Counted from the stretch's first letter, positions 7,848-11,385 are shown. The stretch: 47,083 bases of DNA from Candidatus Peregrinibacteria bacterium (GCA_016196225.1 JACPXZ010000026.1:1-47083); one strand, 5' to 3'. Numbers and translations are program-made. Notes: generated from the sequence alone by a model not told the origin.

Positions 7848-8597
7848 ATGCATATGGCCCTCGAACTTCCGCATTCCATTTTCTTTCACGTGCCAAAAAC
7901 GGGAGGGACGTGGGTCCGTCAGGCGATCAAAAATGCGGGCATTCCGACGAATGAAGTCGGGAATGGGATTGAAGGGATAAACGATTTCCGACGGATGAAA
8001 CATGCATTTTATCATGCGACTCCACGGACGGTGCATACGCTGGGAAGATTCAATTTTGCTTTTGTGCGCAATCCCCTGACGTGGTATCAATCCCTATGGT
8101 CCTTTCAAATGCAACGTCAATGGGAGAATTTCGTCTTACCCGCGTCGGAGGTGTTTGCTGAATTTATTCAACTGTGCGCGCGCGAAAACCCCGGATTTCT
8201 GGGAAGACTGTATGCGACGGTCTACTCGGTGGATTTTCTCGGTCGTTTTGAGACGCTGGCGGATGATCTCGTACGTGCGCTCCATTTGGCCGGTGAAGAT
8301 TTTGACGAAGATGCCCTTCGTTGTACCCCGCCCGTGAATGTGTTCGGACAGTCTGCTCCATACAAGGAACGTTGTCGGTATACATCTTCTCTTCGCGATC
8401 AAGTAGTCGCGATGGAACAGAATCTTTTTCAAAAGTTTCAGTTCTCTACCGATGCTGTGGAATGTGTTCCGGAAGATATGGTTGAAAATGATCGTCGTGA
8501 CAATACTGTTTGGCCCGGCGATGCCGGTGAAAAAAAACACGTCCCATGGGTCAAAGTCCAATCGGATCGGCGACACCCTTCATTGCAGAGAGAGTGA
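7848..8597 (+). CDS. Sulfotransferase-family protein
   Basis: The 249-aa product resembles sulfotransferases that move sulfate from PAPS to a carbohydrate or lipid. The 5'-phosphosulfate loop is IFFHVPKTGGTWVRQAI (about 11-27). The 3'-phosphate-binding strand is NFAFVRNPLTWYQSLW (about 68-83), with the Arg expected in RNP. The middle carries FLGRFETLADDL, another family feature. Among glycan-export genes it probably sulfates the surface polymer, but no PAPS synthesis gene is in view. Starts at 7848 and 7854 are both possible. The 3' end overlaps lysS, on the opposite strand, by 47 nt. Confidence 0.75.
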   Translation: MHMALELPHSIFFHVPKTGGTWVRQAIKNAGIPTNEVGNGIEGINDFRRMKHAFYHATPRTVHTLGRFNFAFVRNPLTWYQSLWSFQMQRQWENFVLPASEVFAEFIQLCARENPGFLGRLYATVYSVDFLGRFETLADDLVRALHLAGEDFDEDALRCTPPVNVFGQSAPYKERCRYTSSLRDQVVAMEQNLFQKFQFSTDAVECVPEDMVENDRRDNTVWPGDAGEKKHVPWVKVQSDRRHPSLQRE

Positions 8598-10635
8598 GTG
8601 AAATAAAATCATCGAGGGGAATGTTGAGCAGTGATTCGCACTGAGCGATCTGTTCCCGGTCGACCTGACGGGCAAAGGTTTTATCTTTCAATTTTTTCTT
8701 GATGGAGGAAACTTCGGTGTCCGCAATTTTTTTGGAAGGTCGTACCAGAGTTGTGGCAATGATGAAACCCGTGAGCTCATCACAGCAGTAGAGGCATTTG
8801 CGAAGCATCGAATTTAAGGGATAGTCCGCTCCATACCGCTTGGCATAGTGAGCGCGAATATCCGCGAGGAGTTCGGGGGGCGCTTTGATGCCGCGTAACA
8901 TCGCGTCGAGTTCTTCTCCGCAGTGTTTTTCGAAGTCTTTGTCGAGAGAGTCCCAATCGAGGTCGTGGAGCATCCCAGCAACCCGCCAAGTATCGGGATC
9001 CCCGCCGAATTTCGTCGCGAGTGCTGCCATCGCAGCACCGGTCGCAATAAGATGGGCTTTCGTATTTGTGGCGTGCTCTTCGAGGAGGGCGTGAGCTGCA
9101 GGAAGGAGATGACCGTACTCGGCATGCTGAAGGAGGAGAGGCTGCGCCACATGGACATGTAAATCCGCTGGCGCGTCTTTACGTGGTTTCATGAGCGGGA
9201 ATAGTACCACATCCCTCAAGTTCCTCTGTTGCGTGAGGAGAGCTACGATCCGATCAATCCCCATACCCCACCCGCTGCAGGGCGGGCATCCGTATTCGAG
9301 GGCCTTCACAAATTCATCATCTTTGCGGTGCGCCGCCGTATCACCTTTGGCGGCGGCACGGGCTTGATCTTCAAATCGTGCGGCTTGATCAACGGGATCG
9401 ATCAATTCGGAGTAGGCGTTCACAATCTCCCATCCTCCGACAACAAGCTGAAAGCGATCGGTGACCGTGGGATCCAAGTCGCTGCGTCGGGCAAGAGGGG
9501 AGAGATCGATCGGGTGTTCGGTGATAAAAGTCGGTTGCAGGATCTTCGGGCGGGCTACTTTTTTGTAGAGCTGATCAATGAGGTTGCCTCGACTTAGTTT
9601 TTCGACGGGGACATCAAGGGTGATCTCCAAGTCACCGATGGCTTTAAGGAGATCTTGTTGCGAGGAACATTCTGCAATATTGATGCCGCAGCCATCGAGG
9701 ATGGCACTCTGGATACTAATGCGGGGCCAGGGGGGGGCAAAATCAACGGTGACGAGATGGCTCTCGCGATCTGGGATTTTGATTTTCGACTTCCCGATCA
9801 ATTCGGGGATGAGAAGTCCAAACATCTGTTCGGTGAATTCCATGTTTTTGTGATAGTCCCAGTACGCGGCATAGTGCTCGACCATCGTGAAGTCCTGCAG
9901 ATGTGAGGGGTCCAGCCCTTCATTACGAAAACATCGAGCGACTTCGAAAACCCGATCGAATCCGCCAATGAGGCACTCCTTAAGGAAGGTCTCGGGGGCA
10001 ATCCGCAGGTACAGATCGAGATCGTATGCAGCATGATGGGTGATGAATGGCTCGGCCAGAGCGCCGGAGGCGGCGCCGGTGAGGATGGGAGTCTCGACTT
10101 CGAGGAATTCGTTGCTCCAATAAAATTCACGGAGCTTCTGGAGGAAAAAACTCCGAAATTCGAATCGTTCGAATGTTTCACGATTGGACAAGGTATCGAG
10201 GTATCGCTGGCGCCAGGCGGTCTCCTGCTCGGCGATACCGTGCCACTTTTCCGGTGGTTGCCGCAGTGCTTTGCAAAGCATGGTCCATTCTTTTACGAGC
10301 ACTGTCAGCTCTCCCTTTTTGGTGGTGAATCGTTTGCCGGTTATTCCAATAATGTCTCCGAGATCCAAAAGTTCGAGCATGCGTATGTATTCCGCTTTTT
10401 TCAATTCATCCTCTTTAAAAGCAATTTGGAGTCTCCCGGTATGGTCTTGCAGATGGGCGAAGGTCATTCCTCCCATTTCTCGCAGAAGCATGATACGACC
10501 GGCAGTGGACACTGGTTTTCCATCTTTTAGCTCTTTGGTCTCATGCAGCGTATGAGATCGCGCAAAAGCAGAAGGATATGGATCGAGACCACCGGTGCGC
10601 ATCTTTTGAGCCTTTGCATGACGGATGGGGTCCAT
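8551..10635 (-). CDS. lysS: Lysyl-tRNA synthetase (class II) fused to a C-terminal HD hydrolase domain
   Basis: The 694-aa protein charges tRNA-Lys. Residues 42-120 form the OB-fold anticodon-binding domain (AGRIMLLREMGGMTFAHLQD). Class II motif 1 lies near 176-190, motif 2 is FRNEGLDPSHLQDFTMVEHY at 236-255, and motif 3 is GWGMGIDR at 455-462. The LysRS fold ends near 485. Residues about 503-694 form an extra HD-superfamily domain with an HDLDWD metal site at 557-562 and a conserved tail (CDELTG 618-623, LVRPSKKIAD 630-639), seen elsewhere as a stand-alone protein. I chose ATG 10635 because residues further upstream have no LysRS similarity and would run into rplC. It diverges from the ribosomal cluster. 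Confidence 0.92.
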   Translation of the reverse strand: MDPIRHAKAQKMRTGGLDPYPSAFARSHTLHETKELKDGKPVSTAGRIMLLREMGGMTFAHLQDHTGRLQIAFKEDELKKAEYIRMLELLDLGDIIGITGKRFTTKKGELTVLVKEWTMLCKALRQPPEKWHGIAEQETAWRQRYLDTLSNRETFERFEFRSFFLQKLREFYWSNEFLEVETPILTGAASGALAEPFITHHAAYDLDLYLRIAPETFLKECLIGGFDRVFEVARCFRNEGLDPSHLQDFTMVEHYAAYWDYHKNMEFTEQMFGLLIPELIGKSKIKIPDRESHLVTVDFAPPWPRISIQSAILDGCGINIAECSSQQDLLKAIGDLEITLDVPVEKLSRGNLIDQLYKKVARPKILQPTFITEHPIDLSPLARRSDLDPTVTDRFQLVVGGWEIVNAYSELIDPVDQAARFEDQARAAAKGDTAAHRKDDEFVKALEYGCPPCSGWGMGIDRIVALLTQQRNLRDVVLFPLMKPRKDAPADLHVHVAQPLLLQHAEYGHLLPAAHALLEEHATNTKAHLIATGAAMAALATKFGGDPDTWRVAGMLHDLDWDSLDKDFEKHCGEELDAMLRGIKAPPELLADIRAHYAKRYGADYPLNSMLRKCLYCCDELTGFIIATTLVRPSKKIADTEVSSIKKKLKDKTFARQVDREQIAQCESLLNIPLDDFISLTLSAMKGVADPIGL

Positions 10636-10785: not shown

Positions 10786-11385
10786 ATGGTCCCCGGTCTC
10801 ATCACCAAAAAAGTCGGCATGTCGCGTATCTTTGCGGAGAGCGGGGAGGCGGTTGCGGTTACGTATCTCAAGGTCGAACCTAATACGATCGTTCGACTTA
10901 AAAACCAGGAAAAGGATGGATATAACGCGATTGTGCTCGGGATTGGGGCGAGTCCCCACAAGACCAAGAACGGGAAGGAACTGACCAAATTTCGACGACA
11001 AAAAGAGTGGCAGGTACAGTCGCTCGAGGGATTTGAGCCGGGCAAGGAATTAGGCGCGGACGTTCTCCCCGTGAATACCACCGTGACGGTAACAGGGGTG
11101 AGTAAGGGGAAAGGGTTTCAGGGGGTGATGAAACGGCATCATTTTGGAGGCGGGCCCGCCACTCATGGATCTCACTTTAAGAGAGAGCCTGGATCGATCG
11201 GGATGCGTACAAAGCCGGGAAGGATCCATAAGGGCAAACGCATGGCCGGTCATATGGGGATGGATACAAAAACTCTGCATCATCGTCCGATTGTTCTTTG
11301 CGATGCGGAGCATGGGATTTTAGGAGTGAAGGGGCCCATTCCCGGCCCCAATGGGGGGTATATCTTTATTACCGTTGAAACCTAA
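10786..11385 (+). CDS. rplC: 50S ribosomal protein L3
   Basis: L3 is an early-assembling large-subunit protein near the peptidyl-transferase centre and the 3' end of 23S. The 199-aa protein has the family N-terminus (GLITKKVGMSRIF) and the loop that reaches the catalytic centre, GFQGVMKRHHFGGGPATHGS (about 107-126). The signature GSIGMRTKPGRIHKGKRMAGHMG follows in 135-160. Length is normal. It is the first gene of the cluster here; rpsJ, which usually precedes it, is absent from this window. The rplD start follows 2 nt after the stop. Confidence 0.96.
   Translation: MVPGLITKKVGMSRIFAESGEAVAVTYLKVEPNTIVRLKNQEKDGYNAIVLGIGASPHKTKNGKELTKFRRQKEWQVQSLEGFEPGKELGADVLPVNTTVTVTGVSKGKGFQGVMKRHHFGGGPATHGSHFKREPGSIGMRTKPGRIHKGKRMAGHMGMDTKTLHHRPIVLCDAEHGILGVKGPIPGPNGGYIFITVET

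Follow-up and report, generated by a model that had tools for sequence, protein, structure and literature searches.

Why should a tRNA synthetase end in a hydrolase, and what would that hydrolase act on? The question is raised by a 47,083-nt stretch of DNA from a Candidatus Peregrinibacteria bacterium (GCA_016196225.1 JACPXZ010000026.1:1-47083; the whole stretch is referred to here as the window), in which an uninterrupted 694-aa reading frame on the minus strand (8551-10635, from the translation) joins a class II lysyl-tRNA synthetase (LysRS) to a C-terminal domain of the HD superfamily. Comparison across genomes places the HD domain with both classes of LysRS, either in the same chain or in the next gene, and its link to LysRS is independent of the synthetase class. 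Class I (PF01921) and class II LysRS are unrelated and have no common ancestor. It is therefore likely that the HD domain serves lysine charging of one kind or another, since it stays with whichever LysRS class the genome uses, rather than serving one particular synthetase. A first-pass annotation of the window had tied the domain to the charging of tRNA-Lys or its by-products, and in this it appears to have been right.

The distribution of the link was followed by scanning GTDB with the tail of the window protein, which returned 75 loci; the 50 most similar are assigned to Peribacteria either by their record or by their place in the tree, with a few carrying other names or none. HD and class II LysRS share one open frame in 28 of these first 50 loci, all from separate genomes, so the fusion is present in at least 28 Peribacteria loci; its absence from all relatives, named in the first-pass annotation as a refutation, does not hold. 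Because the same architecture recurs in one frame across separate genomes, the fusion is not an artefact, and an assembly error or frameshift as its source was ruled out by these many independent genomes. Wherever upstream sequence is available in the Peribacteria loci (46/46), lysS lies just upstream of HD, with a class II gene in 32 and a class I gene in 14. The class II loci comprise 28 fusions and four adjacent pairs (L018, L022, L038 and probably L049), and in L022 the separate lysS and HD genes overlap by 4 bases. In the 14 class I loci a stand-alone HD gene follows lysS, in some after a gap of up to ~1.4 kb.

Other lineages, both within the class and elsewhere in the phylum, also contain HD fused to class II LysRS. 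Class I LysRS carries a fused HD as well, in two genomes from another family (L109, a 738-aa frame, and L112, a 758-aa frame), where Pfam places PF01921, an anticodon domain and HD in a single chain. The class I and class II parts are ordinary members of their families, above curated cut-offs. In distant Paceibacteria (L070, L074, L075) the gene order is greA-lysS(class I)-HD-serS, one form of a cluster that recurs in the candidate phyla radiation (CPR): greA, lysS of either class, HD, sometimes Ham1/RdgB, and serS, with some members absent. The house-cleaning gene Ham1/RdgB stands inside the lysS-HD cluster in several CPR loci.

CPR loci with the greA-lysS-HD-(Ham1/RdgB)-serS cluster: L157-L166, L168, L197, L198, L070, L074, L075.

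In L168 the HD gene adjoins serS and lysS is ~2 kb upstream.

A tree of 88 HD sequences interleaves HDs that neighbour class I and class II synthetases, with strong support. The window HD pairs with that of L007, a class I neighbour (99/90); class II L019 pairs with class I L028 (97/93); L022, a class II locus, falls within a class I group (100/96); and L060 joins L103/L112/L115 (100/99). In the LysRS trees, Peribacteria class I sequences form a single clade (100/100) and class II sequences another (100/100). The genes around either synthetase are common to both, rplC and rplD to the left and further common genes to the right, and rplC is the conserved left flank of Peribacteria lysS for class I and class II alike (50 loci compared). 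In the window this flank is:

10786..11385, plus strand: rplC (uL3), divergent neighbour of lysS (assigned from sequence, gene-family comparison of 50 loci and pairwise identities; no database search).

Between class II L022 and the class I loci L017 and L029, identities are 80-87% for rplC, 59-76% for rplD and 87-88% for HD, the values for L029 being 87%, 76% and 88%, respectively. The simplest reading of these alignments and trees is that the synthetase has been replaced in place more than once and the HD gene kept, because the HD tree interleaves the classes and the flanking genes are common to both. Genome G075 may catch such a replacement midway, as it has a class I lysS next to its HD gene and, at another place, a class II lysS.

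Within the window protein, residues 4-484 match the NCBIfam lysine--tRNA ligase model PRK00484.1 at 551.7 bits (cut-off 468) and TIGR00499 at 485.3 bits (cut-off 427.6), which makes this part a full-length bacterial class II LysRS above the curated cut-offs. PF00152 and PF01336 also match it, and the translation contains the class II motifs FRNEGLDPSH and GWGMGIDR. The protein divides as follows:

9184..10635, minus strand: class II LysRS part, residues 1-484, with the OB-fold anticodon domain at ~42-120 and the catalytic core at 137-482 (PRK00484.1, PF00152, PF01336, motifs).
9118..9183, minus strand: linker, residues 485-506, predicted to be disordered; its length and sequence differ from one relative to the next (predicted local distance difference test (pLDDT) scores, linker comparison).
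8554..9117, minus strand: HD-superfamily hydrolase domain, residues 507-694 (AlphaFold2 model, structural neighbours, PF01966 in 65/65 relatives).

The first-pass annotation had recognised the fusion, which the unbroken frame and the PRK00484.1 match bear out, and had begun the added domain at residue 503. Its span of 503-694 needs only a small adjustment, as LysRS homology ends at ~484 and the HD core starts at ~507, with a variable linker of low confidence between them. In the full-length structure model (predicted template modelling score (pTM) 0.59) the LysRS and HD parts each fold and the linker is loose, with pLDDT <50 at residues 485-500. Among 22 Peribacteria fusions measured, the linker is 22-65 aa long and varies in sequence too, and some linkers retain a Met shortly ahead of the HD core. 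The fusion probably arose by read-through of two adjoining genes. The window protein would be bifunctional, with a catalytically competent dinuclear HD hydrolase held by a flexible tether to an otherwise ordinary class II LysRS. The 3' end of its gene overlaps by 47 bases a convergent gene (window 7848-8597, plus strand) that looks sulfotransferase-like by eye.

The identity of the C-terminal domain had to be drawn from its relatives. Only general HD and HDIG models match the window domain, weakly and below their cut-offs (HD_4 16.8, HD 17.3 and HDIG 21.5 bits), and no family-specific Pfam or NCBIfam model reaches its cut-off. A search of the window's own genome with PF13023 (HD_3) gave no match, and a single-sequence search of solved structures with the HD domain returned nothing useful, a profile being required. 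The HD assignment is nevertheless firm, because the HD/HDIG models (PF01966/HDIG) match all 65 relatives in the alignment. The AlphaFold2 model of the domain has a pLDDT of 97.2 and a pTM of 0.93, and the top of its structural-neighbour list consists exclusively of HD proteins. The domain thus has the HD fold with the H..HD..D ligands of the superfamily, and it also carries the extended six-residue H..HD..H..H..D motif that diagnoses a dinuclear HD site (PMC8177086), with H528, H557, D558, H571 and H596 present in 65/65 relatives. The motifs picked out in the first-pass annotation, HDLDWD (H557/D558), CDELTG (D619) and LVRPSKKIAD, are all present. The predicted metal site and a family-specific basic motif lie at:

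9052..9054, minus strand: metal ligand 1, His528 (invariant, 65/65 relatives).
8962..8967, minus strand: HD doublet, His557-Asp558 (invariant, 65/65).
8923..8925, minus strand: metal ligand His571, third His of the dinuclear set (invariant, 65/65).
8848..8850, minus strand: metal ligand His596, fourth His of the dinuclear set (invariant, 65/65).
8779..8781, minus strand: metal ligand Asp619 (Asp in 59/65, Glu in 6/65 relatives).
8656..8697, minus strand: basic motif K647 K648 x K650 x K652 x F A ... R660 (KKxKxKxFA....R; named residues invariant, 65/65).

The last ligand is Glu in L109, L112, L115, L060, L099 and L102; the fusions to class I LysRS belong to this lineage. The ratio of non-synonymous to synonymous substitution rates (dN/dS) of the HD part is 0.022-0.048 between related fusions, and wherever the comparison could be computed it equals or falls below the LysRS value (0.033-0.039). 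These patterns of conservation point to a conserved catalytic domain on a loose tether, and the domain would be an active hydrolase. An HD oxygenase of the MIOX/PhnZ type, which has the same ligand set, was set aside, as the Peribacteria-type and clostridial owners of this HD are presumed to live without oxygen.

Among known HD proteins, the nearest characterised relative by sequence is YqeK, the HD-type diadenosine tetraphosphate (Ap4A) hydrolase. A profile of the HD domain against solved structures finds YqeK first (8jja, E 1.6e-4), and an hhalign comparison against a pair of YqeK sequences aligns residues 14-166, most of the catalytic core (Prob 94, E 9.5e-8). The window domain shares with YqeK (COG1713, TIGR00488) the HD fold and the H..HD..H..H..D dinuclear ligand set, which is the motif diagnosed for YqeK (PMC8177086), but it differs in lacking a Lys or Arg three residues after the HD doublet, where an invariant Asp and W/Y/F are found instead, as well as in its link to lysS and its KKxKxKxFA...R motif. 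TIGR00488 matches 14/65 relatives (best E 6e-4) and gave no match in a search of the window's own genome. An identity with YqeK was rejected on the unreached TIGR00488 cut-off and the absent basic residue after the HD doublet.

In the structural ranking, the HD domain of the GlyRS beta subunit (Z 11.5 and 11.1) and that of PgpH (Z 11.0) are tied at the top (11.5 to 10.8), with YqeK at 9.5; since Foldseek with the HD model gave no E <0.001, structure singles out no one relative. The GlyRS beta HD (GlyS, PF02092) is similar in being an HD-fold domain within an aminoacyl-tRNA synthetase. It has lost its HD doublet (Ser393-Lys394) and binds tRNA (PMC8464048, PMC9908026), whereas the window domain keeps its metal site, has an invariant doublet and sits on a flexible linker, on LysRS. 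The window HD is accordingly not a GlyRS-type arm, given the loss of the catalytic doublet in GlyRS beta. Sequence homology between the two is unsupported despite the structural match, the profiles showing no similarity (hhalign Prob 1). PgpH, a cyclic di-adenosine monophosphate phosphodiesterase, likewise has a dinuclear HD fold, but it is only 14% identical and has no lysS link; its HD is part of a membrane receptor. Compared with ordinary class I and class II LysRS, the synthetases described here differ by an added C-terminal HD, DUF2000 or B3/4 domain. Mycobacterial LysX (MprF-LysRS), whose model PRK02983.1 matches the window LysRS part, is also a LysRS fused to another functional domain, although that domain is an N-terminal lysyl-phosphatidylglycerol synthase rather than a C-terminal HD. 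No description of LysRS-HD or LysRS-DUF2000/B3/4 architectures was found in the literature searched, which left most subscription journals out of scope, so that a prior mention is possible.

The HD domain is not the only addition at this place. In L018 and L038, close Peribacteria relatives of the HD-fused loci, class II LysRS is followed by DUF2000 (PF09391) and HD is the next gene. Similar tails were collected from further loci:

Class II LysRS with C-terminal DUF2000: L018, L038, L181-L187, L190-L192, L153, L156 (some by blastp only).
Class I LysRS with B3/4 (PF03483): L107, L166, L168, L193, L194 (L107 and L194 by blastp only).
Class II LysRS with B3/4 (PF03483): L188, L151, L156.

The B3/4 fusions span several CPR families, and DUF2000 occurs in 22/145 genomes of the class, within or directly behind lysS in ~15 by comparison of coordinates. 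Tails are also repeated or combined: L181 has DUF2000 twice in tandem, L151 is LysRS-B3/4-HD, L153 is LysRS-DUF2000-HD, and a single 1107-aa frame in L156 (L156:627-3950) reads LysRS-HD-B3/4-DUF2000. A second, stand-alone HD gene lies just downstream of the latter (L156:4446-4988). In PheRS beta, B3/4 serves as the editing domain; the sole solved-structure match of DUF2000 is Atu0240 (2gax, E 0.025), which we take to have a Pth2-like fold. LysRS in these bacteria is a hub for hydrolase-like accessory domains, because HD, DUF2000 and B3/4 interchange at the same C-terminal place.

The HD domain is found in 49/145 genomes of the class and 110/287 genomes of the phylum. Among these 110, it is in one frame with class II LysRS in 22, close downstream of class II lysS in 20, close downstream of class I lysS in 8 and elsewhere in 31; the remaining 29 have no listed LysRS place, and in three of them the HD frame is long enough for a fusion. 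HD is therefore fused to or near LysRS in 50/81 phylum genomes with a listed LysRS place, and adjacency by chance in ~1-Mb genomes is estimated at about one in a thousand. The domain also exists as a stand-alone protein, as the first-pass annotation had stated and the GTDB loci confirm; this stand-alone family is probably COG2316. In Desulfurellales (L067:3986-5124, L068:3986-5128) a stand-alone HD gene is followed after ~20 bases by the elongation factor P gene; in other bacteria this factor is itself a target of a LysRS paralogue. Three of the 21 window-family genomes (G004, G081, G109) have neither LysRS class nor HD despite a 99% completeness rating, and the LysRS-HD locus is probably missing from these assemblies. 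Two records are likely binning or naming errors: L032, filed as a Micrarchaeota archaeon, has an HD and LysRS that group with Peribacteria, and L072, filed as Lutibacter (Bacteroidota), groups with Clostridia.

What, then, could the HD domain do for lysine charging? It may be a quality-control hydrolase that clears an unwanted product of lysine activation, in which case the bond it cuts would most likely be a phosphorus-oxygen bond of some nucleotide by-product set free near the LysRS active site. Candidate substrates would be dinucleoside polyphosphates, Ap4A among them, or the adenylate of lysine or of a lysine analogue once it is released, and the tether or the operon position beside lysS would keep HD where the by-product forms. 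LysRS was the first aminoacyl-tRNA synthetase known to make Ap4A (PMC10148737) and YqeK was found in only 1/145 genomes of the class, which together make a local nucleotide clean-up enzyme plausible, and the flexible linker suits such a role; the Ham1/RdgB house-cleaning gene inside several CPR lysS-HD clusters also speaks for it. Clearance of a nucleotide by-product (a dinucleoside polyphosphate or lysyl-adenylate) is nevertheless put forward tentatively, at somewhat less than even odds. A nucleotide is slightly favoured over tRNA-Lys or Lys-tRNA as the substrate, a choice that amounts to a guess, and the weights given here and below to four competing readings are judgements rather than calculations.

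Several observations weigh against a nucleotide substrate. Class I LysRS is not known to produce Ap4A, and no such role for it was found in the literature searched. The HD gene is away from lysS in ~31/110 CPR genomes, and in Clostridia, Desulfurellales and others there is no LysRS gene within ~4 kb of it. The lysS-HD-serS cluster looks old in CPR, and the association may in part be inherited operon order. The companion tails B3/4 and DUF2000 are domains of aminoacyl- or peptidyl-tRNA type, not nucleotidases, and companions of this editing type speak equally for a quality-control role directed at charged tRNA. With respect to YqeK itself, the TIGR00488 cut-off of 70.15 bits is not reached and the window domain is not matched at E 0.1. 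The column three after the HD doublet is W46/Y10/F6/R2/L1 in 65 relatives, where, by the alignment made here, S. pyogenes YqeK has the basic residue Lys62 (PMC11857287). In addition, 6/11 non-CPR genomes with this HD family also have a true YqeK, so the domain is not simply a YqeK substitute. The Ap4A idea of the first-pass annotation therefore keeps its footing in the top profile match, the hhalign probability and the motif held in common with YqeK, and loses ground on the family cut-off, the missing basic residue, the coexistence with YqeK, the class I link and the editing-type tails; that earlier interpretation as a whole is partly supported.

A tethered editing or repair enzyme acting on tRNA-Lys or Lys-tRNA, which takes off a wrong amino acid, or repairs or trims the 3' end, while its invariant lysine-rich helix holds the acceptor stem, would explain why B3/4 and DUF2000 occupy the same C-terminal place and are combined with HD in L151, L153 and L156. 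The GlyRS beta HD, tied as best structural match, lends this some weight, since U73 and the acceptor stem of the tRNA are bound by a loop and helix (H18-H19) that follow its fifth HD motif (PMC9908026), and K647/K648 stand at the place of GlyRS Arg481/Arg482, as inferred from the order of secondary-structure elements. However, known HD enzymes cleave phospho bonds, with a few oxygenases or a hydratase among them, and not aminoacyl esters (PMC8177086); there is no sequence-profile link to GlyRS beta, and a long disordered linker does not fix HD on the acceptor arm. Action on tRNA is regarded as rather unlikely. The same GlyRS match, the invariant basic residues and the established use of an HD-fold domain as a tRNA-binding part of a synthetase (PMC8464048, PMC9908026) would also be consistent with a non-catalytic arm that grips the acceptor stem as in heterotetrameric GlyRS. 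Such an arm is very improbable, as H, HD, H and H, unlike in GlyRS beta, are invariant in 65/65 and the last ligand is D or E, and as HD exists as a separate protein too and its linker is disordered.

It could also be argued that HD is a general house-keeping enzyme unrelated to lysine, caught beside lysS by the old greA-lysS-HD-serS order and fused by the occasional loss of a stop codon. The cluster does occur with a stand-alone HD in many CPR families, the 4-base overlap in L022 is one step from fusion, the Met ahead of the HD core in some linkers looks like a former start, and in roughly one third of CPR genomes, as in other phyla, HD and lysS are not linked. Yet HD remains beside lysS despite the exchange of the synthetase between two unrelated classes; among the cluster genes seen, LysRS alone is fused to HD, and in both classes; and LysRS alone gathers two further accessory domains at the same spot. 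Inherited order as the main explanation seems improbable, and clearance of a nucleotide by-product is retained as the working proposal. A bolder version, which we hold with less confidence than that proposal, is a lysine-specific system of quality control in CPR, with C-terminal hydrolases (HD, DUF2000, B3/4) that can stand in for one another and are recruited by both LysRS classes to act on the products of charging; HD would then be the first catalytic HD enzyme built into a tRNA synthetase and its substrate, lysyl-adenylate or the tRNA-Lys 3' end, would be new to the superfamily.

The surprise to a specialist, in this case of a synthetase with an appended hydrolase, would be that one orphan hydrolase is kept beside two unrelated LysRS classes. 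That the HD domain accompanies both, and is kept upon replacement, is strong natural evidence for a role in the reaction they share. The finding gives an orphan HD family a concrete pathway, a short list of substrates and a directly testable function. It also bears on whether the Ap4A made by LysRS is waste or a signal; cleavage of Ap4A by a hydrolase built into the enzyme would, if it occurs, be informative here. More broadly, HD, DUF2000 and B3/4 point to a layer of lysine quality control that has gone unstudied, in a large and almost uncultured group of bacteria.

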